Assembly (NCBI RefSeq): GCF_041146795.1
Contig: NC_135177.1
Location: 4,433,560 to 4,497,559 of the forward strand
From: Maylandia zebra
Taxonomy: Eukaryota > Chordata > Actinopteri > Cichliformes > Cichlidae
DNA: 64,000 nt
Direction: 5' to 3'
Numbering within the stretch: position 1 is the stretch's first letter; every line of letters starts with the position of its first letter. Under the pieces are notes generated by a model, which was not told the origin of the DNA, made no database searches, and was given only the letters and a program-made list of their open reading frames with translations. The translations under genes were made by a program, and so were the position numbers. Shown here one piece after another: positions 6,257 through 58,036 of this stretch.

Positions 6257-7876
6257 CCGTATTTTCACGACCATAAGGCGCACTGTGCTAAAAGGCGCAG
6301 TCTCAGTTATGTGTGCCCTTACTGTATTTAACACACACATAAGGCGCACTGGACCATAGGGCGCATACAAGTACCGTATGCGTATTTAAAAATAAAGCGG
6401 GAGCAAACCTGAATTCGGTACCTTACTCACATTTCTATTGCCGGTAATCGTCATCATCAACAACACACAAGCATACAAGTGTGCGTATTTAAAAATAAAG
6501 CAGGAGCAAAACTGAGTTTGGTACTCACATTTTTATTACCAATAATCGTCATCATCAACAACACACAAGCATACAAGTGTGCGTATTTAAAAATAAAGCA
6601 GGAGCAAAACAAAGTTTGGTACTCACATTTTTATCATCAATCAAACCCATCGAAGTCCTCATCCTCTGTGTCTGAATTGAACAGCTGCGCTAAATCTCCA
6701 TCAAACATGCCAGGTTCACTGTCTTCACCGTCAGAGTCACTTTCCGTGCCGTGCGGCTCCTCGGAAACGATGCCGGCTTTTGCGAAAGCTCGAACAACAG
6801 TGCCAGCAGACATGTTAGCCCAAGCATCTACAATCCATTGGCAAATTGTGGCGTAACTCGCCCGGCGCTGCCTTCCACTCTTAGTGAAACTGTGGTCTCC
6901 ACCGGTCATCCATCGCTCCCAGGCCGCTCGCAGCCTTACTTTGAACGGGCGGTTCACACCGATGTCCAGCGGTTGGAGTTCCTTTGTCAGGCCTCCCGGA
7001 ATGACAGCAAGCTCACAGTTCATTTGCTTCACAAGTTTTTTCACATCGGCTGTGAGATGGGCACGCTACTGTGCTGGTCCCCTTCTTCTCCACAGTGTGA
7101 CTCACCGGGATGTCAAAAGTGAGCGGGACCTCGTCCATGTTTGTGATGTGGCTGGGCTGGATGTTTTTGTCGCCGATGTGCTTGCTGCAGTAGGAGCGGA
7201 AGATGGCCAGCTTTTCCTTATAATCCGCTGGAAGTTGCTGCGCTACCGTAGTCCTGGTCCGGATGGAAAAATGGCACCGTTTCATAAAACGAAAGCACCA
7301 AGACGGACCTCCTTGGAAATGTTCAATGTTCATCTCTTCAGCTAGTGAAACTGCTTTTAGCCGAATGGTGACCGTCGAAACGCTTCTCCCGCTCGCTCTT
7401 TGCTCGATGATCCACCGCTCGAGTCTTTCCTCCAACTCGGGCCACCTCGCCTTATGTCCGCGGAAACTCAGCTGCGTTTTCTTGACCTGCCGGAGCTTGT
7501 TTTCCAACTTCCTCCATTTGCGAACCATCGATTCGTTAATCTTAAATTCTCTCGCCGCTGCTCGATTTCCATGTTCCTCCGCGTAGCTGATGGCCTTCAG
7601 TTTAAACTGTGCTTCGTAAGCGTGTCTCTTTGCCATTTTCAGGGTTGTTAAAACAACCATGTCCTGCATAATGCACATACCTGTTCTTTTATACAGGTAT
7701 GTGCGATTGTCCCGGTATATACGATCAACGCCCACACTTCACCCTTTAACGTTCTCATGGTGTTCTCTACTACGTCCTCCTTACAACACATAGGGCGCAC
7801 CGCGCTATAGGGCGCGCCGCACTTTTTGAAGAAAATCTAAGACTTTTAAGTGCGCCTTATGGTCGTGAAAATACGG
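6257..7876 (-). mobile_element. pogo/Tigger-like transposon nested in piggyBac
   Basis: The ends are a perfect 27-bp terminal inverted repeat (6257-6283 and 7850-7876, beginning ccgtattttcacgacc). They are flanked by TA at 6255-6256 and 7877-7878. Removing the element and one TA restores the piggyBac reading frame exactly (Gln-Tyr then Leu-Arg), which proves both the boundary and the relative age. The left part contains about three copies of a roughly 100-bp direct repeat (about 6378-6640). The total length is 1,620 bp, with a broken transposase on the minus strand. Confidence 0.88.
6637..7636 (-). pseudogene. pogo/Tigger-like transposase, internally deleted
   Basis: On the minus strand the gene starts at ATG 7636 (MAKRHAYEA). 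It begins with a helix-turn-helix DNA-binding segment (AAREFKINESMVRKWRK) and a second CENP-B-like segment (FQGGPSWCFRFMKR), followed by the catalytic start NMDEVPLTFD. The frame then breaks near 7013-7044. The protein resumes in another frame with VKQMNCELAVIPGGLTKE and LQPLDIGVN, ending in an acidic tail. The stretch that should carry the second catalytic aspartate is missing at the break. I infer a deletion with frameshift, so this copy cannot produce active transposase. Confidence 0.78.
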
Positions 7877-18064: not shown

Positions 18065-19668
18065 CAGTGGGGCAAAAAAGTATTTAGTCAGCCACCGATT
18101 GTGCAAGTTCCCCCACCTAAAATGATGACAGAGGTCAGTAATTTGCACCAGAGGTACACTTCAACTGTGAGAGACAGAATGTGAAAAAAAAATCCATGAA
18201 TCCACATGGTAGGATTTGTAAAGAATTTATTCGTAAATCAGGGTGGAAAATAAGTATTTGGTCAATAACAAAAATACAACTCAGTACTTTGTAACATAAC
18301 CTTTGTTGGCAATAACAGAGGTCAAACGTTTACTATAGGTCTTTACCAGGTTTGCACACACAGTAGCTGGTATTTTGGCCCATTCCTCCATGCAGATCTT
18401 CTCGAGAGCAGTGATGTTTTGGGGCTGTCACCAAGCAACACGGACTTTCAACTCCCGCCACAGATTTTCTATGGGGTTGAGGTCTGGAGACTGGCTAGGC
18501 CACTCCAGGACTTTCAAATGCTTCTTACGGAGCCACTCCTTTGTTGCCCGGGCGGTGTGTTTTGGATCATTGTCATGTTGGAAGACCCAGCCTCGTTTCA
18601 TCTTCAAAGTTCTCACTGATGGAAGGAGGTTTTGGCTCAAAATCTCACGATACATGGTCCCATTCATTCTGTCCTTAACACGGATCAGTCGTCCTGTCCC
18701 CTTGGCAGAAAAACAGCCCCATAGCATGATGTTTCCACCCCCATGCTTCACAGTAGGTATGGTGTTCTTGGGATGCAACTCAGTATTCTTCTTCCTCCAA
18801 ACACGACGAGTTGAGTTTATACCAAAAAGTTCTACTTTGGTTTCATCTGACCACATGACATTCTCCCAATCCTCTGCTGTATCATCCATGTGCTCTCTGG
18901 CAAACTTCAGACGGGCCTGGACATGCACTGGCTTCAGCAGCGGAACACGTCTGGCACTGCGGGATTTGATTCCCTGCCGTTGTAGTGTGTTACTGATGGT
19001 GACCTTTGTTACTTTGGTCCCAGCTCTCTGCAGGTCATTCACCAGGTCCCCCCGTGTGGTTCTGGGATCTTTGCTCACCGTTCTCATGATCATTTTGACC
19101 CCACGGGATGAGATCTTGCGTGGAGCCCCAGATCGTGGGAGATTATCAGTGGTCTTGTATGTCTTCCATTTTCTGATGATTGCTCCCACAGTTGATTTTT
19201 TCACACCAAGCTGCTTGCCTATTGTAGATTCACTCTTCCCAGTCTGGTGCAGGTCTACAATACTTTTCCTGGTGTCCTTCGAAAGCTCTTTAGTCTTGGC
19301 CATGGCGGAGTTTGGAGTCTGACTGTTTGAGGCTGTGGACAGGTGTCTTTTATACAGATGATGAGTTCAAACAGGTACCATTCATACAGGTAACGAGTGG
19401 GGGACAGAAAAGCTTCTTACAGTAGACGTTACAGGTCTGTGAGAGCCAGAGATTTTCCTTGTTTGAGGTGACCAAACACTTATTTTCCACCCTAATTTAC
19501 GAATAAATTCTTTACAAATCCTACCATGTGAATTCATGGATTGTTTTTTCACATTCTGTCTCTCACAGTTGAAGTGTACCTCTGGTGCAAATTACTGACC
19601 TCTGTCATCATTTTAAGTGGGGGAACTTGCACAATCGTTGGCTGACTAAATACTTTTTTGCCCCACTG
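18065..19668 (-). mobile_element. Tc1-like transposon with about 200-bp terminal inverted repeats
   Basis: The termini read cagtggggcaaaaaagta and are flanked by TA at 18063-18064 and 19669-19670. The inverted repeats extend about 200 bp (18065-18264 and 19469-19668) with only about half a dozen mismatches by eye. Within each, the terminal and inner parts both carry aaagtattt-like or aataagtattt-like words, as in the IR/DR group of fish Tc1 elements. The length of 1,604 bp is normal for the family. Confidence 0.93.
18281..19303 (-). pseudogene. Tc1 transposase, one nonsense codon in an otherwise complete frame
   Basis: Starting at ATG 19303 ([10 protein letters not shown]) the frame reads 291 residues to a TGA at 18430-18428. 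It then continues without a shift to TGA at 18283-18281, for 340 codons in total, the usual Tc1 length. It has a paired-like helix-turn-helix region ([18 protein letters not shown], then RSGAPRK as the hook). The catalytic triad is also visible: [21 protein letters not shown] and [11 protein letters not shown]. The triad lies before the stop, but the last 48 residues would be lost. A single substitution explains the defect. Confidence 0.88.
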
Positions 19669-27835: not shown

Positions 27836-27935
27836 TACTGTGCATTTAGGTGACCATGATGAGAGAGACAGACAGAGTCTGGATGGCTCAGATGCTGGCA
27901 GTTCTCGCTGCAGCCTACCGTTAGCGTCTCCTTTC
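27836..27935 (+). pseudogene. hAT transposase exon fragment, left of the insertion
   Basis: A short reading after an acceptor-like tgcatttag (HDERDRQSLDGSDAGSSR) leads up to the insertion point of the large transposon at 27935. It belongs with the exon that resumes at 39286. Identification as hAT rests mainly on the right-hand part, so this piece alone is weak. Confidence 0.4.
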
Positions 27936-28023
27936 TACGGAGCCCCCCAGGGGACATGGGAGAAAAAAAAATTACGGAGGAAAAAAAAAAAAATTAGGGA
28001 GAAAAAAAAAAATTAAGACGGAC

Positions 28024-28090
28024 TTTTGCGAGATCTCGCAAAAGTATTGCGAGCGCTCGCAATAAGTATTGCGAGATCTCGCAAAAGATC
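28024..28090. repeat. Left subterminal palindrome array of the 11.3-kb transposon
   Basis: Contains ttttgcgagatctcgcaaaa (28024-28043, a perfect 20-bp palindrome) and attgcgagcgctcgcaat (28046-28063, a perfect 18-bp palindrome). Another gcgagatctcgc core follows. The right end carries the same units in larger number (39063-39193). These are likely transposase-binding sites by analogy with subterminal repeats of other elements. Confidence 0.85.
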
Positions 28091-28160
28091 CCGCTCCTTT
28101 TTGATAGCGTTTCAGTTGAAGGGTGCGGTGCTACGGTACGGGGCTCCATACGGTGCGGAC

Positions 28161-31100
28161 ATGGAGGAGGATTTAGAACATTTCTTGCGGTCAAGAGAGG
28201 TCCCACACGACGACATCATGCACATGCAACAAGACAAAGTACGTATAAACAACAAAGCATTAAACACCGCGGTTCAAAAGGCGAGTAACTTGTTGAAAAA
28301 CCGAGGTCGTATATGCAGGCCTTTAATGTTAATTCTTGTAAATATGTTCAGGTTCATTAAACATAACTCGTTAAGTGCACATATGTTTTGAAATTTCAAA
28401 TCGTGTCCAAATTCATGGGCTGCATCCTCCCGAGGACTCGGGCTTCGTGGTCTACGTGGGCCGGGTTCTCAGAACGGCTGGGGAAATTGGACGGTCTAGC
28501 CTTCTGATTAGCGTCACCGCTGTCTCGGTGGAGTGTAATAAGCTCGTCCGTCTGCTCCTTTCTATCTAAAATATAAGACGACACTGGAGTAAATTCTCGA
28601 CCATCTCGCACTTCTGTTTAATCAGTTTTCTGTATGACGTTGATTAAGCGCTGTAAAACCAATGTGGAACCCACCCGGGGGATTAATAAAGTTTTATTTT
28701 ATCGAATTTAATCTAATAACTTTAATCTCAGCCAAACCGTTTTACTCACGAACAAATGAAACACTGAAAAAAGCCAAACATTAACATTTTTAGGTTGTCT
28801 AAGTGTTTTATATATTAAGTTTAGCCTGAGTAGCTAAAGTCCGCGGTGATCTGAAAATAATATGCCGCGAGTTGTGCCGTTCTTGGCGGCTTTAGTGACC
28901 CTTGAGCTCTCGGCTACCTATCGAGCTGGTGGGTAACAGACATCAAGGAAAACGTCGAAGCACTTTTGCAAATATGCGATATCTTGATAAACCGAGAAGA
29001 TATTTCAAGTTTATACACCCACGTTCTCCCCTGAAATGTGTTTAAAAAAAATTTGTGACCCAGAAAGATTAATAACGGTCATTTTAAAACTTATTAACGG
29101 CCGCCATTACCGGAAACTGGAGTTTGGCTGGGCTGCACTTTGAATTCTGGGATATGGGCCACGAAGCACACACCGGACCCATCCTTCAAATTCGGTGAAA
29201 AGTGAATGTAATTCTTTGTATTACACCCCCTGGCATATGTTAATTTTGTTCTGGTTGTATACATGTTCTGTATACTGTTTCTTAATAAAGTTCAATAATT
29301 AAAAAAAAAATAGGTGAAAAGGAGGACGCATTTGTCTGCTGCATTCGGAGGAGTTTACGAATTTAAAATAGAATCTTTGTAGAGATTGCCAGAATTGTTG
29401 TACATTTCTGTGCAAATAATAATAAAAAAAAAAAGGAGTCTACGAAATTGGATAGCCTTTGGTGCATCGCTGTGACATAATCGGTCTACAAAAGCGTCCT
29501 CAGGAGGATGCAGCCCATGAATTTGGACAATGTGATAAATACAGTTTAAAAAAAAAAAAAAAGAGGTTGCAGCCCATGAATTTGGATGTTGTTATCTGGC
29601 TGTGCCATAACCATGGTAACATGGACAGCATGGCACAAAATACTTGGTGGAACTTACCTTACTTATACCTTACTAGCAAAATATTTTTTAGTAACGTAGT
29701 ATATTGCTACAGGAAAAATGATTCTATGTTTCTTTACCTTCTTTTAAATGTACAAAGATGCCCTTTGTCTGTGGTTAGATTAGTTTAGAAGTGTCTTTTT
29801 AGACTTTCCCAGCAAAGACATATTGTTTCGGGGACATATTGTTTCAGATTGTTTTATCTCTCCCAGCTCTCTGCTGACGAGACTAGCACCATATATGGAG
29901 TTGTTTATTTTATCTGTTTATTATTTTCTTATCCTGTTCTCACTGTCTCTGTGATTTGTGCCTATAAAAATGCCAAGCCACTGTCCATGGTTGTGGGTTG
30001 TTTCCAGCAGCTCACCCGTGTACACGTTAAGCATAAAAAAGTAACTTTGTCTCATTGTGTCTCTATTCCTCCTGGGTTTATTTTTGCAGGGTTTTCTCCC
30101 AACATATATAAATATCTACTACTATTACTATACTAATACTAACACAGCAACAGTAAAGTAATAAGACAGAAGTTGACAGAGTAACTTTTGATAATGATCA
30201 TGAACAGTGATTAAGAACTCTATTCTAATACAGTTAGTATTCCATGTGTGCTAGTGTGGCTTCCTCGAGTAAAAGTATATTAATACCATTTCTCTAATGT
30301 TTTATGTCTGCAGGTGGATAAGGCAGTGCTGTCCGTCATGACTGATGGACAAATGGCAAAATACATAAGGACATATGGTGACAGACTAGCTGTCCAGTCC
30401 TTCTGTCAACAAACTAAGTACAGCACAGATAAAGAGACTCTTCTGCAGAACCTAAGAGATAAAATTGCGGCACGGAAAGTAAGATCAAAAACCAAAGGAG
30501 TGCTGTGTGGTTCATCAGGTGTGTTCCAAAAGCAAAGTGAAGGGATGTCAAGACAGAGAAATACTGCAGCAGAGAAGACCTGCAGAAAAATAGAAATCGG
30601 ATGGCTTCATTTAAGCAGTAATGAATACCGTCAAGTGAGAACCAGAAATGGTGGAGGAACAAGACATGCAACTGTGGAAAAAACTACAACTGTAGCTAAG
30701 ATTTTGGAAATGGGAAAGGACCTGTTTTTTCCAGATGGGTACTCGCCAAAAGGGAGAGTTGAAGACTTTGTCATTGAAATCAGTGATTTTAAAAGAAATC
30801 CGATTGCTTTAGATGACACTGTTGGCAAACTTTATGAACAAACCAAATTGAAGCTCCTGAGATTTTACATTTGCACGAAAGATGAAACACTGTTAACAGT
30901 TCAGTCCTCATCTGAAGAGGATTTTTCTGTCAGCATAACTGAAGAAGATTCACCAGTGACATTACTTGGATTTGACAGTGAGACAGATGATTTTGTACCA
31001 GATCTACTTGAACATGGGGATTCATCTGACAGTGACACTGGCAAACAGGTTTGTTAAAATAAGAAAGTTATTATTAAAAATAATGATCACTTTAAAGTTA

Positions 31101-34040
31101 CTGTATTTTGTTGTGTTTATTAGTGCTCGGTGGTAACATGCGACATTTTCTAATTTTGTTGTACTATTGTACTAGGTTTGACTGTGCAACTGCAATAAAG
31201 AGTTGTGTTATTCAAGTGCTTTATGTACATCTACGAATATTTGCACTTCTGTAGGATGAAATTATTCCAGGAATTTGTTGTTGACTTGTGTGGTAAGGTA
31301 CATCTGTGAAAGACTTCCAGCTTTGTATTCATTAACATGTACAAAATGACTGGCTGCTGAAAAAATAATTGAATTATTTTCGTTTGTGTCTTGTGTTTGT
31401 TTTCTGGTTCACAGATTCACAATTTCCAGATGGAACCCAATCCAAAAAAAATGAAATCACTCTGTGAGGCAGTGACAACACAAAGTCCAGGAAAATCCCA
31501 TCATATGCATTCAACCCCAACAGACATTAAAAACACTGTCGTGGGACAGCGGCAGCAGACTGACTCAAGTGATCATGATTTCCCTGACCACTGCTCTGAA
31601 ATTATTGATCTGACCAGTATAGTTCCTAACAAATCCTTCAAACTACAGTCCCAGGCCAAACTTCTAGAAGATTTGGAATGTCGTTTTCCACACATAGACG
31701 AAGCGGATACGGTTGTATGGAATCCTGAAGAGGATCTTGTCAGAGCAGATGGTGATGACACAGTCGTGATAACCCTGAATTATGTCAACAGTGAGGATCT
31801 CAGACAGGTAAGACCATGGACAGTTGTGGTTGATATGGTTCAAGTGTGACAAAAGATGGAAATTTATTAATAATCAAATTTAGTAACTTGCATAGTTCTG
31901 CTTTTAAAAAAGCTGATCATGCATTCCTGCTTGGACAAAATTTAAGCATGTGTGTTATTTTCTGTAATATTCTTTTGGATCTTAAAAGAAATAACTTACA
32001 GTACTGTGAAACAATTTTTCGATTTTTATTAATCAGAATTCATCTCTTGTTTGTTTAAAACTTGATTTTTTGGCAGCAATAATACAACATTTTAAGTAGC
32101 AATAAGAAAATCAAGATCTGATAAAAACCTGTGGAATTCCACTGTAATATGTCTTTTTACTCTTGTAAGTGAGACATGTAGGCTGAAAATAAAGTGGTGT
32201 ATTTTTGTTCTATTTCTTAATACCTATTGACATATTTTGCAGACTTTTTAAGAACATTCATGAATTAGAATAGGCCAAGTTAGAAGATTGAAGAAGAGTC
32301 TTCTAATCTTGAAGGGTTAAGGTGTCTGTTGTCAATTAATGCAATACTTCCTTCTCAGAATGCCGACACAAATGGATTACCTATGGATGGTTTCCTGCTA
32401 CCATTGTCTTCAGCTAATGGCTTGCCCACACCCCATATGCAGTCAATACAAGAGGAAGCACCCCAGATTGCACAGGTAAGATGGATCAATTCAGGCAACC
32501 ATAAACACCTACCTTTACATACTGTAGAGATGCCAAAAATGTCATGCTATTTTCTGAGGATATGGCAGTTTGTGGGTCTATTTGAATTAAAAGGATATTG
32601 TCAGTTGAGAGACAATTACAGTGTTTTACATTAACATAAGATTAAACAGGAAATTTAGTCTTGAAATAAAATTATTTACATAACACAGCAGTGAGACATT
32701 GTTTTGGTGTCACTATTGTGTTCTCTACCTATTTTGCACAGAAGTGCGTCTTCTCATACCTGTAAAGAACACTTGTATAATTTTCTGTGAGGCATACAAG
32801 GACATCCATCAGGCCACAATGTTAATGTAATATATAAATTGTCAGTGCAACCATGGTTTGGGAATGTACAAATGTTCAAACTTTTTCAGAACATTGATAT
32901 TGTGTAATCTGTACAATTCAATTGCATTTCTTATGGAATGTGCATGTTTTGTCTTTTACTCAGGACCATGGACTGAATTTCATCGCACAAGGTTTGCGTT
33001 TAGATTCAAGCAACCAACTTTCCCCATCAAATTCAGGAGACCCACAGAGCCCCCTACATGTATCAATTCGCAGGATAAAAGTTGTTGATGATCTTTTGGC
33101 TGTATTTATGGACAGTCGCATTCTGAATGTGACTTTAAAGATGAACTTTGTAAATGAAAATGCTGTTGATGATGCTGGGGTGTCAAGGGAGGTTTACACT
33201 GCATTTTGGGAGCAATTTTTGGAACAGTGTGAAGGTGAAAATGAACGAGTTCCAAGGCTGAGGCCAGACTTTAGTGAGGCTGAATGGCAAGCAGTTGGGC
33301 AGATATGGGTGAAAGGCTTACTAGACCATGGTGTCTTTCCAGTGAGGCTGTCAAGGGCTTTCATTTTAGCTTGCATCCACGGAATGGACTCAGTTGATGT
33401 AGACATTCTGATTGCATCGTTTCTCAACTATCTCCCTCCTGTTGAGAGATCAGCTGTTGAGAAGGCGCTCCAAGGCACAATGGATGAAAATGATGAAGAG
33501 GACCTGCTTGACCTTTTTACAAGGATGGGTTCCCACTTCCTACCACCTAAGAACAACATGCAGCCTGCCATTGAAACAATGGCTCATAAGGCCATTCTCC
33601 AAGAGCCAAAGTATATAATGGATTGCTTCTCCACACCCATGGCACATCTGCAGCTGAAACTGGCAGACAAGGAAAGTGTGTTATCTCTGTATGAGACAAA
33701 GAAGGCCACAGGCAAAAGACTAGTGCAGCTATTGGAAGCAACAAAAATCATGCTGTCTCACGGAGAACAAACAACGTTTAACCATCTTCAGCGTTATGTT
33801 AAAAACGCTGATGAAACCAAAGCTGAAAAAATCCTGCGCTTCTGCACAGGATCTTCTGTAATATGTGTTGACAAAATTTTGGTGTGCTTTAATGCTGAAA
33901 CTGGGCTCAACAGAAGGCCTGTTGCTCACACCTGTGGAGCTACCCTTGAAGTGCCATGCACTTACAGTTCTTATCCTGAATTTCGCACAGAGTTCGACAA
34001 TATCCTTTCCAGCAATTACTTTGAAATGGACATCATTTGA
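28161..34040 (+). CDS. HECT-type E3 ubiquitin ligase carried by the transposon, five exons, 799 aa
   Basis: Exons by GT-AG reading: 28161-28238, 30314-31048, 31415-31807, 32359-32475 and 32964-34040 (stop at 34038-34040). All junctions are phase 0 and the joined protein has 799 residues. ATG 28161 was chosen because it opens a conserved-looking start (MEEDLEHFLRSREVP) that joins smoothly to VDKAVLSVMTDGQMAKY and YGDRLAVQSFC. The middle contains a recurring domain (IEIGWLHL, GGGTRH, FFPDGYSPKG) and acidic low-complexity stretches. The last 330 residues form a HECT-like domain: DDAGVSREVYTAFW near its start, and the catalytic cysteine in VAHTCGATLEVP at about residue 765, 34 residues from the end as in active HECT ligases. 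Presumed role: E2-to-E3 thioester transfer of ubiquitin to an unknown target. The architecture recalls fish G2E3-like proteins. Confidence 0.8.
28404..29529. repeat. Possible 1.1-kb inverted-repeat element in HECT-gene intron 1
   Basis: The 34-bp arms 28404-28437 and 29496-29529 match in inverted orientation with a single mismatch (core attcatgggctgcatcctcc). A third partial copy of the arm lies at 29567-29586. Between them is a patch ending in aataaagttcaataatt and an A run near 29300. No target duplication is obvious. It is probably a non-autonomous DNA element nested in the transposon's intron. Confidence 0.5.
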
Positions 34041-34370
34041 ACTTGATGAGTGTACTAATGGTTAGAGCTGTAATTTTTATTTGTATGAGACCTTGAGTTC
34101 ATAAATTCTGTCTTGTTTCATTTTGTCATTGAAACATTTGATATATTCAGCCGTATAACAAGCAGTCACAAATTTAATTTTCTGATGGTTTAGTTGTATG
34201 TTAGGTCATATTTCACAAGGACTCTTTATTGTTTAAAATTCTTTGAAAATGACCGCATCTTTAACTTCTGTTGAAAACAAGGTTTGTGTTTAGCGTTAGA
34301 GGGACAAATCACATAAAAATTCGCTGTACACATTGTCATTTTTTTTTCTTTTACTCTTGCCATCAGCCAG

Positions 34371-34376
34371 AATAAA
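34371..34376 (+). promoter_or_regulatory. Candidate polyadenylation signal of the HECT gene
   Basis: aataaa about 330 bases after the HECT-gene stop codon, followed by a T-rich and tgt-rich stretch. It is the first well-placed canonical signal downstream. Confidence 0.4.
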
Positions 34377-36312
34377 GGCTCGCTTTTGTTTTAAGTTGAT
34401 TGTCCTCTCTCTCTCCTTGTCTGCATTTGGGTACGTTCTCTCAACACACCTGCATACCCTGCAGTGACACACATTGGCTTGCTGTTTATCCATCTAGAAA
34501 GTTCTGAAGTGAGTTGCCTAGTTTTGGGAGATATTAGCTGTAGAGATCTCTTCCTTGTTGAAAAACAACATGAAGCTACATAAGGTCTACATAAAGACAT
34601 TGCTACTAAGCATTAAGTACCATGTGAAACAAGAGAGGGGTAGGCTTGTACAGTCAATATCTCTAAAATTGGGCAACTCACACTAAAACAATGTGGATTA
34701 AGGAATACTACAGCTAGCGAACAGAAAAATTGGTAAATTTGATTTTAGGGTGAAAAGTCCATTAATATTAGTAAAGAATGTCACTATGGTTGCAAAAGAA
34801 GTTATTGAAAGTTAATGATAAGATCCTGTTTACAAATTCTTAAAGCTGATGTGGCCTATAAACATCATCTTGTAACAATAAGTCCTATTTTCCCTTGATT
34901 AGCTTCCAAAATGTTTACTAGTTGTTTTGTTAAAAATCATATTGCCATCACAAGTTTTTTTTTTTTTTGAAAGGACTTTGCCATAATGTGACATACAGAT
35001 GATTCACAATTCTTTATAGTGTCTTATATAATTACAAATTAACAAGCAATGATAATCAGATTTAACAGTTTCTAGGATAAACAAGATTGTAGGCCAGGAT
35101 TTCTAATTAGATTAAATAGTATATATGGTTAATTATAAAGTATTGCTACATTTTTGACAGATTATGCACTTCTGTCTACCCTTCTCTGAAATTAAAGTGC
35201 CTGGGAACACAGGCAGTCAATACACAGATGTTGTCGATATGCTTTTGTCATTTGCAATTTTTTAGTTGTCTGTACTACATAGTCCAAAAATAATTAGAAA
35301 TTGATTAGATTTCAGTTTATTTGTCCGGTAGTTCAACAACACATATCATCCTTTCAGAAGTGGTGAGTTTTGCAAAAATAGCATTCGAATGAAATTGCTG
35401 TTCATCAACAGAACAGGTGGGTGCAAAGAATTTGTTATTCAGCTGATAAAATAAGCTTCAGATAAATTCAGTGACAAAAAAAGAATGTTTATATCTATTA
35501 GAAATTCTAAGAGTTCAAAAGGTCTCTATTTAGTTCTTTATTTTTTCAGTTTTGTTTAACCAACATTAAAAAACTAAAGCTCTTCTGGAATCAGAATAAA
35601 TAGTTTAAAAAAAAAGAAGCAAAAATGACATGAAATAACTATATTTTTAGCCAGAGAAACTGGAGTTCAGAAAAATGCCAAGGTGCCCCCTCTCAGATCA
35701 TGATGCCCCTTAGTACCATTTCATGTAGCCTGCCAATGTGACAGTTGGCGTTATAATATATATAAAGCAGCAAGGCATAATATCATATCTCTTCGATTTT
35801 AAACAGTATTCTAGCCAATATCAACAACTAAACATTCCCATCATTAACAAATACAGATGGTGTAAATAAAAACCAACTCACCATTTAAAAATTATTACAA
35901 AATACTCAACATAAACCACCATTATCTGATTAAACACTGTACATTAAAACTCCTAACACATTAAATTAAGATGTGTCTTATGTTTTGATCCATGTATCAA
36001 GCCAAATACACAGTTAAAGTAATTCGAAGTAATACACATAGACATGGAACTTGATAACATTTGACAGAACATTACAGTGTTTTTGTGCTAAAGAACACTC
36101 AGAATATCATTAACAGGCAGAGACTCCCCTTTATACTTTAGTTCACTGACCCTCCTGGAACACAACAATAAATATTTCTATATAAGATATTCTCATAAAT
36201 GACTGTGTACTAGAAAGCTTACAGTTTACAGTCTGTTTAACATCCAGAAGTTAACTTTCGCACATATCACAGGTCAATTTTGAGTAATGTTCTCTGCTGC
36301 AGTGTATGCAAT
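34377..36312. other. AT-rich spacer inside the 11.3-kb transposon
   Basis: About 1.9 kb between the convergent HECT gene and transposase gene. It is AT-rich and has no open frame of interest. It presumably holds the 3' untranslated regions of both genes. No nested element end was recognised. Confidence 0.5.
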
Positions 36313-39010
36313 TTACACTAATGCCATGATGTTCTCTCTTAAATGCATGTACAAGTTCACAGCCTGATATGAGTCTGTTGGTGGAGTCAGATGGGACTCA
36401 GTCATGATGATATTGCACAGTTCATATACATCGGGGTCACATGGTTTGGTCAGTCGAAAAACACACTCAGTTTTACACATTTCAACATGTTCTTCTTCAG
36501 TGGGGCAAAGGAAGTCTCTTGTCCCGTAGAGCTCAGGTAATGTATACATTACATTAGGTCGACCACTGGGGATATTGATGTTTGCTGATGGCCTGATGGA
36601 GTGTGTATTCCAAACCTGTGCAGTGTCATCCAGCTCATCCTGTTAAAAAGAATACAGAAATTTAAGAAATGCGATCGCATGTACGTATATACATATACGC
36701 AAATCACGATGAGACAACTCACTCACTGAGAGGAAGGTTTATTAGATTTATGCAATTTATTATTTTTAAACAATCATGTGCATTTTTGTAATCATGTACT
36801 TTACCTAATGTCATCTGTACAAGTGTTTCACACACTAACTACGGTTACTGTTATGCTGTGATATCTTACATTAGTACTATTAGTCTTATTACTACCTGCT
36901 TGGCTCATCTACTCACCTCATAATAATCAATTTGTTTTATGTCACTGATCATTGTATTTTGTATTTGTAAGTTATTTTGATATCCCAATCGAAATAATTC
37001 CAAATTGTAAATAGTTAATATTATAGATAAGAAAATTTCATATGCCATGTCAACATAAACAACATAGATGTTACTGTAGTCTTGGTTGTTGAGCTCTTCC
37101 TTAAGGCGGCCGATTGCTTAAACCTAAATTATAGTATTTACACAATTTTTGATTTCATTTACTCCCTGCTCCTCTCACCCGCTTCTCCCTGTCTTGTCTC
37201 TTTCTTCCTGCAAGTCTCTCCATTCCCTAAACCTGGTACAGGGCCCTATTTCAGGAAGTGAAAAACGATACTCAGGGTTGAGTAACCCCGAACTGTCCAA
37301 CTCGGAATATTCGGTTTCAGAAAGGCTGATAACAATTAGTTCAATCAACGCGGAGTTGCTTTAACCCCAAGTTAAGCACGCGCACAAGGATACATAAAGC
37401 CCTTATTAGTGGAGCACAGATTAAGCGAGTCACCATGGAGACGGAGGGAAAGAAGGCGCAGTCAATGTATTTTACAGCGCTTGAGGCCGAAATTCTGATG
37501 GCAGCATATGCCGATAACATGCAAATTTTGCAGAAAAAAAGTAACACAGCCTCAGCTGCAAAAGAAAGAGAGCATGCATGGCAAAAAATAGCCGACAGAG
37601 TCAATGCGTGAGTGTTAATTTAAACATTGATCTAGGGATTTCCACCCATTTAACACGTTATTTATTATATTTTATTTTTTATTTTATACATTTTATTTTG
37701 TGACGTGATGTGATCGCAGGTGCAACCCAACAGGCCCCAAACGTTCCTGGCAGCAAGTAAAAATGAAATATAAAAATATAGTCCAAACAGGTGAGGTGTA
37801 ATTGTATTATGAGCCATAGTGCTTGGTCTGTTTGTCCGATGTAAATCAATTGCAGTTAGAGGCTACATTAATTGTCTTTCTGTAAGCACTTATTAAAATT
37901 ATCTGAGCACATTACAAGTACATATTTGCTTACTCTGTATGCTCAAATGTGACCCGTTATGGCCACTAGAAAAAAAAGTGGAGGCCCGAAAAAAAAGATG
38001 GGGGTCCTCCACCACCACCACCACACAGAGGCTGAGCAGTTGGCTTCCACATTTGTGATAATGGGAACACCACAAACGAGTACAGGACACGTTTCACTTC
38101 CTCAGTTTCCTTTATCTCTCACTCACACACGCATGCATCCAGGCACGCAACAAAACATATTTTATTAACTCACCTGGATGAGTCCCATGCAACAAAACTG
38201 AAGGAGGTTTTTGTCCAGAAACCCACCATCAAAGTACCCGTTGTCTCTGATGTCTGCAAATAAGGATAACCAGAACTCCAGACACTGGCTGCGAAGAAAA
38301 CGCCACCAGTATTCAATCCTTTGATTGGCGGTACTTGCTCCCTCCAAGTAACTCTCAGGGGTGTCGTTAGGAGCCACGGGCACAAGGAAACGTTGAAAGC
38401 CTCTAACATGGCCATTTTCAGTTCCAAGATCGCCCCTCACAACTCTAGGGCAGCCCTTTAAACGCTGCACCGCTTCTATGTAATACCCCCCGATCACTTT
38501 CGGATTACTATTTGTTGTGTATGCATTAAGCCAGATTATTTTTCTCGAGAAACCGTCAATACTACCATTGATACAGATGCCATATGGCTTCAGTTTGTCG
38601 TAGGAGTCCATGTGCCAGATGAAATTCGGCCCTTTTGAAAAATAGTTCCTCCGCCTGAAACATCTTGCTTGCCTCAGTGCGACGCCTCGGGGATCCAGCT
38701 CCTTCAAAACCAAGCGCACATCCTCTTTCCTCACGCGTAGTCCATGTTCCCTGCATTTAGCGTACATCCATCGGTATCCGTGAAGCTGCCCAGAGTACTG
38801 CAATTGGTTGTCTATAAATTCAACCAAGACGGCCAGGTCAGAGTACGCTTTGTGGCGAGTGTGTCCCCTTGCGCTAAGAACTCTCTTCAGATGTCTTTCG
38901 CTTATATGAAAACTGTGTCTAATGCAAAGCACAGTTTTAATGTCTTTATAGTTTAGTCCAAGCTCAAAGTAAAAATCTATGAATCGCTCAAATGGGTGTG
39001 TGTCCTCCAT
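36313..39010 (-). CDS. DDE integrase-type transposase of the 11.3-kb transposon, two exons, 387 aa
   Basis: Minus strand: exon 1 39010-38174 and exon 2 36639-36313, joined phase 0 (donor CAG|GTGAG, acceptor aacag). ATG 39010 gives MEDTHPFERF; an in-frame upstream ATG at 39082 lies in the palindrome array and is less likely. The N-terminus has a helix-turn-helix-like part (YKDIKTVL, FHISERHLKRVL) and a second DNA-binding-like segment (GYRWMYAKCREHGLRVRKED). The core shows WHMDSYDKL (D135), VRGDLGTENG (D194) and NQRIEYWW (E233), an intact triad with D-58-D-38-E spacing. The C-terminus has PSGRPNVMYTLPELYGTR. It should cut the transposon ends and join them to target DNA, producing the 6-bp duplication. 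It is convergent with the HECT gene. Confidence 0.85.
37238..38095 (+). CDS. Myb/SANT-like DNA-binding segment within the transposase intron
   Basis: ATG 37435 opens METEGKKAQSMYFTALEAEI, then LMAAYADN and AWQKIADRVN to a GT at 37610. A second exon (about 37721-37790) reads CNPTGPKRSWQQVKMKYKN. A third (about 37971-38090) reads a lysine-rich, histidine-rich stretch and TEAEQLA. The order matches a Myb/SANT-like trihelix DNA-binding domain of the kind that accompanies Harbinger-type transposases. Just upstream, 37240-37330 reads gggccctatttcaggaagtg and repeated aactcgg-like words, which could be a Harbinger-type end. It may be a component of the large transposon or a nested Harbinger fragment. 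The 3' end of the gene is not resolved. Confidence 0.55.
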
Positions 39011-39062
39011 CGCTGTGGTTGTTTCTAAGGTTTCAGTGCTGATTTGGAGGTCTATGGTACAG

Positions 39063-39193
39063 ACTTTTGCGAGATCTCGCAATACTTATTGCGAGCGCTC
39101 GCAATACTTTTGCGAGATCTCGCAATACTTATTGCGAGCGCTCGCAATACTTTTGCGAGATCTCGCAATACTTTTGCGAGATCTCGCAAAAGT
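39063..39193. repeat. Right subterminal palindrome array of the 11.3-kb transposon
   Basis: Four gcgagatctcgc cores and two gcgagcgctcgc cores alternate, joined by aatactt or aatacttatt linkers. The left array has two and one respectively, so the ends are similar in kind but unequal in copy number. Confidence 0.88.
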
Positions 39194-39285
39194 CCGTCTT
39201 AATTTTTTTTTTTCTCCCTAATTTTTTTTTTTTTCCTCCGTAATTTTTTTTTCTCCCATGTCCCCTGGGGGGCTCCGTACCTTTC

Positions 39286-53388: not shown

Positions 53389-54105
53389 ATGTCAGCTGCG
53401 TTTTGTTTGCAGCACTTTATAGCTGCCCCGTCTCTAGGGATTATTAATAGCTGTCGCAAGAATGATTTGCTGCAAATTGTGGATCACTTTCAGCTGCAGG
53501 TTTCAAAAACTCTCCGTAAGAGTGAAATAAAAGCCTTAGTGGTGGACAAGTTGGTGGGAGCTGGTGTGCTTCAAGCGCCTGCTTTGCCTGTGGTCTCTGG
53601 TGTGCCAAGCCAAGCTGCCGTAGTTGAAGAGGGCCAAAATGGTTCCAGTGGGGATGGTGAGGGGGATGAGCGGGGAAAAACGCCGCGCACGCTTCCTCGC
53701 TATGATCCACTCTCTTCTGGGAGTTCCGAAGGGAGAGAAGGAGCTCGGCTGAAGGTGCGGCTGGCACGTCTCCAGATGGAGGCTGAGGAGAAGGCTCAGA
53801 ACCGGCGGGTTCAGCTTGAAATAAGGAGGCTGGAAATAGAGGCGGACAAGGCCGTTAGGCTCCGACAGCTTGAGCTGGAGTCACAGTCTCAAGCCTCATC
53901 TGTCTCTGCTGTTCATTCCGGTCCCACCTCCACGTCCACTTCTGCTTTTAAAATTGATAAGTGCATTTCTTTAGTGCCCACTTTTAGAGAAACTGAGGTG
54001 GATACATACTTTGCAGCATTTGAACGAATCGCTGGCGCGCTGCAGTGGCCTAGTGAGATTTGGCCTCTTTTCTTTAAAGGACAGTTTAGATTACTCGTGT
54101 GTTAA
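53389..54105 (+). pseudogene. gag, N-terminal part, ending in a frameshift
   Basis: From ATG 53389 the reading gives MSAAFCLQHFIAAPS, then a SAP-like or coiled N-terminal part, a charged helix (ARLQMEAEEKAQNRRVQLEI) and the start of the capsid-like domain (CISLVPTFRETEVDTYFAAF). Just after IWPLFF the frame runs into a stop at 54105. The continuation of the same capsid-like domain is found in the next frame, starting at about 54068. A segment of the domain expected between the two parts also seems missing. I infer a small deletion that shifts the frame, leaving the element without normal gag. A programmed shift is less likely, because domain residues are absent. Confidence 0.65.
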
Positions 54106-57100
54106 AGCAGCTGTCTTGAAGGCCTATGAGCTAGTTCCAGAGGCCTATAGGCAGAGGTTTCGCCAGCAAAAGAGATTGCTGTCGCAGACTTATGTGGAGT
54201 TTGCAAGAGAAAAGGGGGTTCTCTTTGATAAGTGGTGTGTTGCGTCAAAAGCGACTGACTATGACGCTCTGCGCGAACTAGTTTTGTTAGAGGACTTTAA
54301 GAAATGCATTCCTGAGCGTATTGTGCTGTATTTGAATGAACAGAAAGTGACGTCGCTCGCATCTGCTGCTGTTCTTGCTGATGAGTTTGTACTCACTCAT
54401 AAAGCCTCGTTTACTGACAGTGAGAAGCCACGGGTTAGCCCTGTGCAACAGCGCCACACAGCTAAAGTGTCTGGGTCTAAGGAAAGCCGTGAATGTTTTT
54501 ACTGTCATAAAACTGGACATGTGATTGCTGACTGTTTAGCCTTAAAACGCAAAACATCAATTGCTCAGCAACCCAAAGGGGTGGGTTTTGTAAAAGCTGA
54601 GGCCCATCATGAGGTCCATGGTTGTGGTGGTAGGGTGCCAGACCCCTGTTTCGAACCATTCATTTTTGATGGCTCAGTATCGCTAACAGACAATCCATCT
54701 GAGTTAAAACCTGTGCGTATTTTAAGGGACACTGGAGGTTCTCAAACTGTCATCCTCTCAAGTGTATTACCATTTTCTGCTGAAAGTGAATGTGGTTTTA
54801 ATTCTGTTCTACGGGGGATAGAGATGGGTTACGCTCCCAGACCAGTTCACAGAATTTTTATTAAATCAAACCTTGCTACAGGATTTTTCCCTGTTGCTGT
54901 TTGCCCGGCCTTGCCAATAGAGGGTGTGGCCATGCTGTTGGGCAATGATATCGCAGGAGGGGTAGTGCTCCCTCGTCTGGAGGTTTTAGACAACCCCCTG
55001 AATCAGAAAACTTCTGATGTGTCTATGCACCCTGGGCTGTATCCAGCCTGTGCAATTACTCGAGCACAAGCTCGGAAAGATACTGATATTGCCCTCTCTG
55101 ATTCTGTGTTGATGTCCTCGTTTTCCGGGGAGAATGATGTACCCACTAACAGAAACAATGTTCTGTCACCTCCAGACTCTGTGACGCCCGAGGAGCCTGA
55201 TCCATTTCCTAAGGACTCTGTACTGCCTTTGACTAGAGATCAGCTGTCAGCAGCTCAATTAGCTGATGAAACAATAAAGAGCTGTTTCAAACGTATGGTA
55301 AGTGCTGAGCAAGCCAAAAAGGAGCAACAAGCCTATTTCATAGAACATGATGTTCTAATGCGTCAGTGGTCTCCACCAGGTGCAGAAGGTGCAGATTGGA
55401 GTAAGGTCAAGCAGATTGTAGTGCCCTCTGCGTACCGGCAGAAGATCCTGGCCCTTGCCCATGAAAGCCAGTGGTCGGGACACTTGGGCATCACGAAAAC
55501 ATACCAGCTACTATTAAAACATTTCTTTTGGCCTGGTATGAAGCGTGATGTTTCTAAATTTTGCAACAGTTGCCATGTATGTCAGATTGCAGGTAAACCC
55601 AATCAGGTCATACCCCCGGCTCCGTTGTGTCCCATTCCTGTAGTGGATCAGCCGTTTGACCATGTCATAGTAGACTGTGTGGGTCCACTACCTAGAACAA
55701 AATCAGGAAAGCAATATCTACTCACGATAATGTGTGCCGCTATCCGCTTCCCCGAGGCTGTCCCGTTACATAAAATTACAGCGAGATCTGTCGTTAAGGC
55801 GTTGACAACCTTCTTTTCAGTGTTTGGCTTGCCTAAGGTCGTACAAACCGACCAGGGCTCGAACTTTCAGTCTAAGGTATTCAAACAAGCAGTTAGCACT
55901 CTGGGTGTTAAGCATATTGTGTCCTCTGCTTACCATCCTGAATCGCAAGGTGCATTAGAGCGGTGGCACCAGACCTTGAAGACGATGCTACGCAAATACT
56001 GCCTGGAGAGTGATAAAAGCTGGGACGAGGGTGTTCCATTTGTGTTATTTGCTGCCCGTGACGCCGTTCAGGAGTCACTTGGGTTTAGTCCCTCTGAGCT
56101 AGTATTTGGCCATAGGCCACGGGGACCCCTCAAAGCTCTGAAAGAGGCGTTTTTGAGCCCACAAGGGGTTTTCAAAACAAACGTCAGCAGTTATGTAAAA
56201 CACTTCCGTGAGCGTTTGAATCAAGCCAACGCTCTGGCTAAGCAACACCTTGCTGCGTCACAGGGAAAGATGAAACGCCATTATGATAAGGCTTCTGTTA
56301 AAAGAACCTTTCAGGTGGGTGACCAGGTTCTCGTGCTCTTGCCTGTCCCTGGCTCAGCCTTGTCTACTAGGTATAGTGGCCCATTTAAAGTTTGTGAAAA
56401 GAGAGGGGAGACAGATTATGTAATTTGCACTCCCGACCGCAGACGCAAAACACGTGTCTGTCACGTAAACATGTTGAAACTGTACCATCCGCGGTCAACA
56501 CCAAAGCCTGCAGGGCTCTGTGTTCCTATTGTAGCCTCAAGCCACCAGGAGGAAGGAGGGGCGGATGGGGGTGATGGGTTAAAACTATGTTATCCCACCT
56601 GTTCTAGACCCCGTTTGTCTAACTCTGAAATGCTAAAAGCATTGCCGAGTTTGCTTGAGCATCTGATTTCAGAGCAGCAAGAGGACATAATTGCCTTAAT
56701 TAGGGAATACACCTGTTTATTCGGGGATGTGCCAACTGCCACTACGGTGCTAGAGCATGACATTGATGTCCAGGGCGCTAAACCTATTAAGCAGCATCCT
56801 TATCGAGCCAGCCCCCATAAGCGCGTGCTCATGAAACAGGAGGCTGACTATCTGCTGCAACATGGTTTAGCGAAGCCCAGTCAAAGCCCCTGGAGCTCGC
56901 CTTGTATAGTGGAGTCTAAGCCAGATGGCTCGCCCCGTTTTATTACAGACTTCCGGAAGGTGAACTCTGTGACTGTGGCTGACTCACATCCTCTCCCAAG
57001 GGTTGAGGATTGTGTAGACAGTATTGGGACTGCTCAGTATGTCTCCAAGTTAGATCTTCTTAAGGGTTACTGGCAGGTCCCTTTAACTGAACGTGCCTCT

Positions 57101-58036
57101 AACATCGCTGCCTTTGTTACACCCGATGATTTTTTACAGTACACAGTCATGGCTTTCGGCATGTGTAACGCTCCTGCCACCTTCCAGAGGCTAGTAAATA
57201 AAGTCCTCCGTGGTCTGTCCAACTGCAGTGCCTACCTAGATGATCTAGTAGTTTACACTGAAACATGGCAAGATCATTTGGAAACGTTACAACAGGTATT
57301 TCACCGTTTGGCACAAGCTACCCTAACTCTCAACTTAGCTAAGTGTGAGTTTGCCAAAGCTACTGTGACGTACTTAGGCAGGGAGGTGGGACGTGGACAG
57401 GTCCGGCCCATAGATGCCAAAGTGGAAGTGATTAAACAGTTTCCCACGCCTACCACCAGGCGTGAGTTACGTCGGTTTCTAGGGATGGTGGGCTACTACA
57501 GGAACTTTTGTAAGAATTTCTCCTCTGTAGTAAAGCCATTGACTGACCTGCTCAGCCCAAAGGTTGAGTTTAGCTGGTCGAGTGAGTGTCAGGATGCTTT
57601 TGAGAGTGCAAAAGCCCTCCTCTGCCATTCTCCTGTGTTAGCTGCACCTGATTTGACGCGACCATTCAAACTCGAGGTTGATGCCAGTGCTGTCGGGGCT
57701 GGGGCAGTGCTGTTGCAAGAAGACTTGTTGGGTTTGAACCACCCCGTTTGTTACTTTTCCCGCAAGTTCAATAAAAATCAGTTAAACTACTCCACCATTG
57801 AAAAGGAGACCCTGGCTTTGTTGTTGGCTCTTCAGCACTTTCACGTGTACCTGGGGTCCAGCATGTTGCCTCTTGTGGTGTACACAGACCACAACCCACT
57901 TGTGTTCCTGGCGCGTATGTTTAATCACAACCAGCGCCTTATGCGCTGGGCTCTGTTGTTGCAGGAATACAACTTAAGTATCCACCACAAAAAGGGGACT
58001 GAAAATGTTTTAGCTGACGGTCTGTCCCGTTTGTAA
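54068..58036 (+). CDS. gag C-terminus, protease, integrase, reverse transcriptase and RNase H (Gmr1-like pol)
   Basis: This frame is open from 54011. Homology starts at about 54068. Numbering is from 54011. The capsid-like remainder (LVPEAYRQRF) leads to a zinc knuckle at residues 162-175 (CFYCHKTGH...C), then protease with DTG at 240-242. Integrase comes next: the HHCC finger (H484, H491, C521, C524), the catalytic D555 in IVDCVGPL, D614 in TDQGSNF and E650 in GALERWHQ, then a C-terminal GPFKV segment. Reverse transcriptase follows, with PYRASPHK, FITDFRKVN, LDLLKGYWQVP, FGMCNAPATFQ and YLDD at 1075-1078. RNase H (EVDASAVGAGAVL, IEKETLALL, YTDHNPL) ends at ADGLSRL. All catalytic residues are present, so pol itself looks functional. 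It follows the frameshifted gag without its own start context. Confidence 0.9.
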   Translation, partial: FSLKDSLDYSCVKAAVLKAYELVPEAYRQRFRQQKRLLSQTYVEFAREKGVLFDKWCVASKATDYDALRELVLLEDFKKCIPERIVLYLNEQKVTSLASAAVLADEFVLTHKASFTDSEKPRVSPVQQRHTAKVSGSKESRECFYCHKTGHVIADCLALKRKTSIAQQPKGVGFVKAEAHHEVHGCGGRVPDPCFEPFIFDGSVSLTDNPSELKPVRILRDTGGSQTVILSSVLPFSAESECGFNSVLRGIEMGYAPRPVHRIFIKSNLATGFFPVAVCPALPIEGVAMLLGNDIAGGVVLPRLEVLDNPLNQKTSDVSMHPGLYPACAITRAQARKDTDIALSDSVLMSSFSGENDVPTNRNNVLSPPDSVTPEEPDPFPKDSVLPLTRDQLSAAQLADETIKSCFKRMVSAEQAKKEQQAYFIEHDVLMRQWSPPGAEGADWSKVKQIVVPSAYRQKILALAHESQWSGHLGITKTYQLLLKHFFWPGMKRDVSKFCNSCHVCQIAGKPNQVIPPAPLCPIPVVDQPFDHVIVDCVGPLPRTKSGKQYLLTIMCAAIRFPEAVPLHKITARSVVKALTTFFSVFGLPKVVQTDQGSNFQSKVFKQAVSTLGVKHIVSSAYHPESQGALERWHQTLKTMLRKYCLESDKSWDEGVPFVLFAARDAVQESLGFSPSELVFGHRPRGPLKALKEAFLSPQGVFKTNVSSYVKHFRERLNQANALAKQHLAASQGKMKRHYDKASVKRTFQVGDQVLVLLPVPGSALSTRYSGPFKVCEKRGETDYVICTPDRRRKTRVCHVNMLKLYHPRSTPKPAGLCVPIVASSHQEEGGADGGDGLKLCYPTCSRPRLSNSEMLKALPSLLEHLISEQQEDIIALIREYTCLFGDVPTATTVLEHDIDVQGAKPIKQHPYRASPHKRVLMKQEADYLLQHGLAKPSQSPWSSPCIVESKPDGSPRFITDFRKVNSVTVADSHPLPRVEDCVDSIGTAQYVSKLDLLKGYWQVPLTERASNIAAFVTPDDFLQYTVMAFGMCNAPATFQRLVNKVLRGLSNCSAYLDDLVVYTETWQDHLETLQQVFHRLAQATLTLNLAKCEFAKATVTYLGREVGRGQVRPIDAKVEVIKQFPTPTTRRELRRFLGMVGYYRNFCKNFSSVVKPLTDLLSPKVEFSWSSECQDAFESAKALLCHSPVLAAPDLTRPFKLEVDASAVGAGAVLLQEDLLGLNHPVCYFSRKFNKNQLNYSTIEKETLALLLALQHFHVYLGSSMLPLVVYTDHNPLVFLARMFNHNQRLMRWALLLQEYNLSIHHKKGTENVLADGLSRL

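Follow-up and report, generated by a model that had tools for sequence, protein, structure and literature searches.

DNA transposons of the IS3EU superfamily generate 6-bp target-site duplications (TSDs) and carry TA..TA termini, according to the accessible sections of one survey (PMC10045372), and their fungal members are described, in the accessible part of a second paper, as having TAYGG..CCRTA ends and terminal inverted repeats (TIRs) longer than 30 bp (PMC12730594). The same part of that paper reports that in fungal IS3EU elements a TET/JBP dioxygenase gene is accompanied by an alpha-kinase gene whose orientation is opposite to that of the transposase and that the accessory enzyme is proposed to aid escape from silencing; HECT domains and ubiquitin are not mentioned there (PMC12730594). 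Styx of Zymoseptoria, a further fungal case, is IS3EU-derived, and the model for its origin starts from a two-protein IS3EU element, ubiquitin being again unmentioned in the portion of the text available (PMC10853768). Here, we analyze a 64,000-bp stretch of the Maylandia zebra genome (contig NC_135177.1; hereafter the window), which contains an 11,344-bp DNA transposon at positions 27936-39279. Like the fungal elements, it has a second gene opposite to the transposase; in place of the alpha-kinase and the dioxygenase, however, this gene encodes a putative HECT-type E3 ubiquitin ligase, which looks to be the usual second gene of such elements in this genome and not an accidental passenger.

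The boundaries of the element are defined by inverted ends and by the duplicated hexamer CCTTTC, which directly abuts the left end (27930-27935) and recurs without mismatch directly at the right end (39280-39285). Its 152-bp TIRs, located at 27936-28087 on the forward and at 39128-39279 on the reverse strand, are 96% identical over 153 columns with the outermost 118 bases fully identical, and the element termini read TACGG..CCGTA. With up to three mismatches allowed, the window contains the 24-base end TACGGAGCCCCCCAGGGGACATGG at two places, namely the two element ends (shuffle mean 0.00, n=100). The ends additionally hold nine exact copies of the 16-bp palindrome TTGCGAG(AT/CG)CTCGCAA (shuffle mean 0.01): three lie subterminally within the left TIR on the side of the HECT gene (28026-28084; starts at 28026, 28047 and 28069) and six on the side of the transposase (39067-39189), within a right TIR and subterminal array that together span 39063-39279, with a spacing of 21 or 22 bp throughout. 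Such symmetric sites two helical turns apart suggest a dimer, perhaps the transposase, that would be bound repeatedly on one face. Because the 6-bp TSD, the TACGG..CCGTA ends, the 152-bp TIRs, and an integrase-like DDE transposase are all present, the assignment of the element to the IS3EU/GingerRoot superfamily, which shares the duplication length, the TAYGG..CCRTA ends, the long TIRs, and the transposase type, is well supported by its sequence. The one point of difference is the HECT gene, which is not named in the available parts of the published descriptions. We likewise found no paper that joins IS3EU and HECT, with the Repbase entries and the GingerRoot paper, in which a HECT gene may be recorded, outside our reach.

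Two genes converge from the two ends of the element, and their exon structures are predictions that rely on open frames and splice signals. The transposase is encoded on the reverse strand by two predicted exons, the first of which (39010-38174, 279 codons) begins just inside the right repeat array and contains the DDE core, while the second (36639-36313, 108 codons plus stop) follows a GT/AG intron; the unbroken frame corresponds to 387 aa with the triad D135/D194/E233, which is invariant in all eight aligned lineages. Pfam identifies the integrase core PF24764 (E 4.1e-23). The single NCBIfam match, to the bacterial IS3 model NF033516, has an E-value of 0.024 and lies far under the cut-off, and the N-terminal part yields a weak Clr5-like Pfam match below the cut-off, no search aimed at an HHCC motif having been made. 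Exon 1 found no match in the PDB at E-values up to 10, a PHROGs search returned none, and neither a viral contig collection, queried with the transposase and the terminal sequence, nor a separate genome contig collection, queried with the transposase, contained a relative.

The HECT gene runs on the forward strand and comprises five predicted exons separated by four GT-AG introns, all in phase 0, which together give an unbroken product of 799 aa. Exon 1 (28161-28238, 26 codons) places its start codon 73 bp beyond the left TIR and ends in a GT donor; exon 2 (30314-31048, 245 codons) encodes an N-terminal region that is conserved in three other families; exon 3 (31415-31807, 131 codons) is a poorly conserved linker; exon 4 (32359-32475) adds 39 codons; and exon 5 (32964-34040, including the stop) encodes the HECT domain with the motif RRPVAHTCG, in which a cysteine occupies the position of the catalytic cysteine. 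The domain is recognized at the C-terminus as PF00632 (E 1.7e-8, 35 bits versus a cut-off of 23.9), whereas the N-terminal half has no Pfam match above the cut-off. TOM1 is the sole HECT chain in the PDB that exon 5 matches, weakly, and the cysteine of the window protein aligns to that of TOM1 and is invariant across the four families described below. An AlphaFold model of exon 5 alone from a single sequence reached a mean pLDDT of 38.3, and searches of the viral contig collection with exons 5 and 2 found no relative. As far as the accessible part of the literature on animal HECT ligases goes (PMC2837046), the window protein resembles these in its C-terminal HECT domain and in the cysteine within a TC motif, and differs from them in being transposon-borne, a setting unmentioned there, in its N-terminal half without a Pfam match above the cut-off, and in reading TCG where the TOM1 chain has TCF. 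An earlier note on this stretch had claimed the matching termini, the exact cctttc duplication, a DDE transposase without breaks, and a five-exon HECT-type gene without breaks, and all four claims stand.

To place the element in its genomic context, we searched the window's own assembly (962 Mb, 63 contigs). A query composed of the left end and HECT exon 1 returned at least 167 matches, a lower bound because 40 of 456 candidates were scored; we inspected the five other places that hold full-length copies, together with twelve stretches from eleven places where the match was short or partial. The five further full-length copies are about 97-99% alike to the window element: C7 (99.2%) and C17 (97.9%) align end to end, C21 (98.4%) and C4 (98.6%) align over nearly the whole element with one end as a separate piece, and C22 aligns in three pieces at 97.4-99.1%. 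All six full-length copies have TACGG..CCGTA ends and carry the HECT gene at the same position, and each is flanked by a different 6-bp duplication: CCTTTC in C11 (the window copy), CTCTCG in C7, AGTTAT in C17, GGTCCG in C4, GAATCC in C22, and AGAAAT/AAAAAT in C21, the last agreeing in five of six bases and the other five being exact. The element has therefore inserted as a unit, HECT gene included, at six separate places. Both frames are unbroken in C11, C7, and C4. The HECT frame of C17 and that of C21 each contain a stop, and the transposase of C17 is frame-shifted in addition; C22 retains an unbroken transposase, but unrelated inserted sequence has taken the place of the first 158 bp of its HECT exon 2. 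The same ends also delimit short copies of 742-921 bp; seven of the nine measured have exact 6-bp TSDs, and the other two agree in one and three of six bases. Two of the eleven short or partial places yielded no pair of ends. BLASTN matches of at least 100 columns cover just the ends and a piece resembling HECT intron 1 in these copies, which lack both the transposase and the HECT gene, and their movement without either gene fits factors that act in trans. The points on which the earlier note had turned, namely other copies with the same termini, a HECT gene that is always present, and distinct duplications from copy to copy, are thus borne out for the full-length elements, the short ones lacking both genes alike. 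The intron-like piece, observed in L018 and L020-L028, measures 154 bp and is 76-78% like HECT intron 1.

Beyond this young family, the same pair of genes recurs in three divergent families. Transposase exon 1 is 54% identical to that of the window in L031, 47% in L032, and 46% in L033, exon 2 is 44-48% identical in the three, and their open HECT frames span 655, 600, and 647 aa, respectively. L031 has TIRs at 254-431 and 7394-7572, an exact GTTTTT duplication on both sides, TACGG..CCGTA termini, and the ends TACGGAGCCCC; the left end of L032 is outside the stretch examined; and L033 has inverted repeats of 94% identity, its outermost right bases being ambiguous, so that we claim no TSD. The four HECT proteins share 31.8-40.0% mutual identity (31.8-38.1% for the three compared with the window protein) and have three regions in common: RRPxxxTCG at the cysteine, the block M.D....YI...GDR toward the N-terminus, and a block in the middle with GGGTR, LFFP.G, and LR.Y. 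Given this degree of divergence and the invariant RRPxxxTCG, the HECT frame has been kept open over a long divergence. A chance open frame was rejected as an explanation, as HECT frames are open at 31.8-40.0% identity in the families read; a one-off capture, the alternative in the earlier note, is refuted by the recurrence of the transposase and HECT pair in divergent IS3EU lineages. The palindromes of L031 differ from those of the window (mostly GTGGCCAC) and are spaced mostly by 20, 42-43, or 64 bp, which is near multiples of 21, and the spacing in L033 is less regular (21-22, 46-47, and 55-56 bp). L032 also contains a 544-bp inverted duplication (1-544 versus 6374-6917, 99.8%), by which the start of HECT exon 2 is found beside the transposase as well.

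The association of the two genes was then assessed across the genome by pairing matches according to position. Transposase exon 1 had 141 matches and HECT exon 5 had 81; the pairing used 68 of the former, down to 165.6 bits, and 64 of the latter, the remainder being four transposase matches above that line (two extra parts of a locus already listed, and two short fragments), 69 below it, and 17 HECT matches that are further pieces of listed loci. Among the matches used, a HECT match lies within 15 kb of the transposase for all eight transposases with at least 95% identity to that of the window and for 25 of the 29 with 45-60% identity, these 25 being convergent without exception; over all identity classes, 35 of 35 linked pairs converge. 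Seen from the other gene, 28 of 41 HECT matches of at least 250 aa are situated within 15 kb of a listed transposase, in zones that account for about 0.2% of the genome. The earlier note had regarded such gene cargo as a rarity, a view that has to be revised for the elements of this genome. Two local clusters were also recorded: On C3 (6376638-7505767), eight HECT-like matches lie on one strand within 1.1 Mb, 30-31% identical to the window HECT with frames of 296-336 aa and no listed transposase match within 15 kb, which raises the question of amplified or host-adopted HECT genes. On C9 (15106912-15545498), about six degenerate transposase copies with similar stops are 80-83% identical to that of the window in one part; none of the five that entered the pairing has a HECT match within 15 kb, and they could reflect segmental amplification of a dead copy.

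Five more distant loci (L034-L038), with transposases 27-43% identical to that of the window, were examined for a partner gene. Queries of the window HECT type and a profile of the four families found nothing significant in them. Reading of the translated opposite strand of L038, however, revealed exons that encode a HECT N-lobe and C-lobe: PF00632 is matched by the C-lobe exon alone at 3.1e-11 and by the joined pieces at 3.7e-16, while the N-lobe exon alone has no match, and the best PDB matches are the C-lobes of UBR5 (2e-5) and AREL1. Relatives of these exons, convergent to the transposase, are present in L036 and L037, and L034 retains a remnant of them, so that four of the five loci contain this second HECT type. 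We had considered the transposases of 38-44% identity to be a HECT-less group and dropped this idea after L038 had revealed a different HECT type that the window exon 5 query misses. L038 has 592-bp inverted repeats of 98% identity that begin at the first base of the stretch examined, whereas none of the 9-kb stretches of L034-L037 yielded convincing TIRs.

Taken together, we consider it probable that the window holds an autonomous cut-and-paste transposon of the IS3EU type with two standard convergent genes, whose HECT protein acts in trans. In the mechanism we propose, the transposase would bind the ends, perhaps at the palindromes spaced by 21-22 bp, excise the element, and join it to a target cut with a stagger of 6 bp. 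The HECT protein, whose gene starts at the opposite end, would act in trans and attach ubiquitin to a protein by which transposition is held in check. Because the pairing is so constant, because the genes converge with each starting at its own end, and because the ligase changes faster than the transposase, we picture a helper in trans that acts on something variable. Its likeliest target, in our judgment, is a host restraint, a choice that we make tentatively and with less than even confidence; the transposase or the transposition complex comes second, slightly behind. The earlier note had likewise raised, as a conjecture, an action on a transposition factor or against a host defence. The latter would correspond to a HECT protein that regulates the transposase or dismantles the transposition complex, that is, to a self-encoded control of dose or turnover without any host target. 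This is a serious contender, if somewhat short of an even chance: All 35 linked pairs are convergent, the transposase is the sole constant partner seen, and a remodelling step of the transposition complex is known from phage Mu. What speaks against it is that in L031-L033 the HECT protein is 31.8-38.1% and transposase exon 1 46-54% identical to its counterpart in the window; as far as this rough comparison goes, the ligase changes faster than the transposase, which fits a changing outside target better.

The origin of the gene can be weighed in the same manner. That the HECT gene was captured on one occasion and has since travelled with the element as a neutral passenger would agree with a frame that is broken in three of six full-length copies and with the weak selection signal among copies; yet we hold it to be very improbable because a neutral gene would have decayed, whereas convergent pairs accompany 25 of the 29 listed transposases of 45-60% identity and full open HECT frames persist at 31.8-40.0% identity. 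More weight is due to the idea that IS3EU lineages recruited HECT genes several times independently, which we regard as quite conceivable without inclining toward it: The second type was missed by the window HECT queries and by the four-family profile, came to light solely through the reading of L038 and with its own exons as queries, and has UBR5 and AREL1 C-lobes as its best PDB matches where window exon 5 matches, among HECT chains, TOM1 alone, and that weakly. Both types are convergent to the transposase, however, and one ancient, fast-diverging gene would give the same picture. The simplest conceivable alternative, an ordinary host HECT gene lying by chance between two inverted repeats, could draw on the abundance of HECT-domain genes in animals noted in the available part of PMC2837046; with the whole unit at six loci flanked by different 6-bp duplications, its probability is next to nil.

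Several observations weigh against an element with two standard genes and a ligase that acts on a transposition-limiting protein. With regard to the protein, the Pfam match of the HECT domain is weak, though exceeding the cut-off, and the cysteine is followed by G instead of the F of TOM1. With regard to its maintenance, two of six full-length copies have a HECT stop and one has lost part of exon 2, which means that not every copy requires the gene; moreover, selection on HECT within the young family is supported weakly. In the corresponding test, variants were compared with an expectation derived from noncoding sequence: Among five HECT copies, 16 variants are synonymous, 23 are replacements, and two are stops, at an expected synonymous share of 0.246 (P 0.029), and their total of 41 compares with 49.2 expected (P 0.14), while six transposase copies have 15 variants versus 24.3 expected (P 0.03) and no synonymous excess (P 0.80). 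With regard to linkage, just one of seven transposases of 80-94% identity, which are short or degenerate, has a HECT match within 15 kb, and 23 of 24 transposases of 38-44% identity lack one of the window type at this distance, the sole pair in that class sharing its HECT match with a 55% transposase about 4 kb away. Four transposases of 45-60% identity have no HECT match of the window type within 15 kb (C9:31694124, C16:80665, C3:62104134, and C4:3540677), 13 of 41 HECT matches of at least 250 aa have no listed transposase nearby, eight of them on C3, and neither HECT type is seen in the 9 kb of L035. Finally, the present evidence, being drawn from sequence comparison, does not directly separate a host target from the transposase as target.

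With the fungal cases and Styx in view, the two-gene layout may be general in IS3EU elements, with second genes that differ between lineages. A survey of the literature on HECT or other ubiquitin-ligase genes in DNA transposons, judged from titles and the beginnings of abstracts, led us to recognize no such case among the papers listed. Related themes exist in other superfamilies: Plant Mutator-like elements carry genes for ULP-like proteases, and VANDAL elements carry anti-silencing VANC proteins. They share with the window element a transposon-borne protein from the ubiquitin/SUMO field or with an anti-silencing role, and differ from it in superfamily and in the proteins themselves. To our knowledge, few enzymes that could interfere with host control are borne by transposons, and those described concern DNA methylation or SUMO-type proteases. 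A ligase kept beside the transposase over deep divergence offers a direct way to test which functions a DNA transposon requires in addition to its transposase. Annotation would benefit as well, since HECT genes of this kind may be listed among the host genes in genome projects. The broader proposition that a HECT ligase is ancestral and standard in animal IS3EU elements, and serves there as an effector by which a silencing or defence protein of the host is eliminated, appears rather unlikely to us; if it were true, many of the "extra" HECT genes in such genomes would be transposon genes or their descendants.

The remaining features concern the introns of the element and the surrounding sequence. 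The transposase intron contains, on the strand opposite to the transposase, a Myb/SANT-like domain in two pieces (37437-37794, + strand; PF13873, E 1e-15), which is probably an old nested insert of the Harbinger type. HECT intron 1 contains a possible second nested insert (28404-29529), bounded by a 34-bp inverted repeat with arms at 28404-28437 and 29496-29529 that are 97% complementary. The description of the element as apparently intact in the earlier note accordingly holds for both frames and both ends and has to be qualified for the introns, in which older inserts seem to be present that break neither reading frame. Among the direct repeats listed for the window, none brackets the HECT gene, apart from arrays within the terminal repeats, and an Rfam scan at gathering scores gave no match. 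Elsewhere in the window, a 312-aa open frame at 18428-19366 resembles, by eye, a Tc1-type transposase, and a 1353-aa open frame at 53975-58036 resembles, likewise by eye, a retroelement with integrase and reverse transcriptase.

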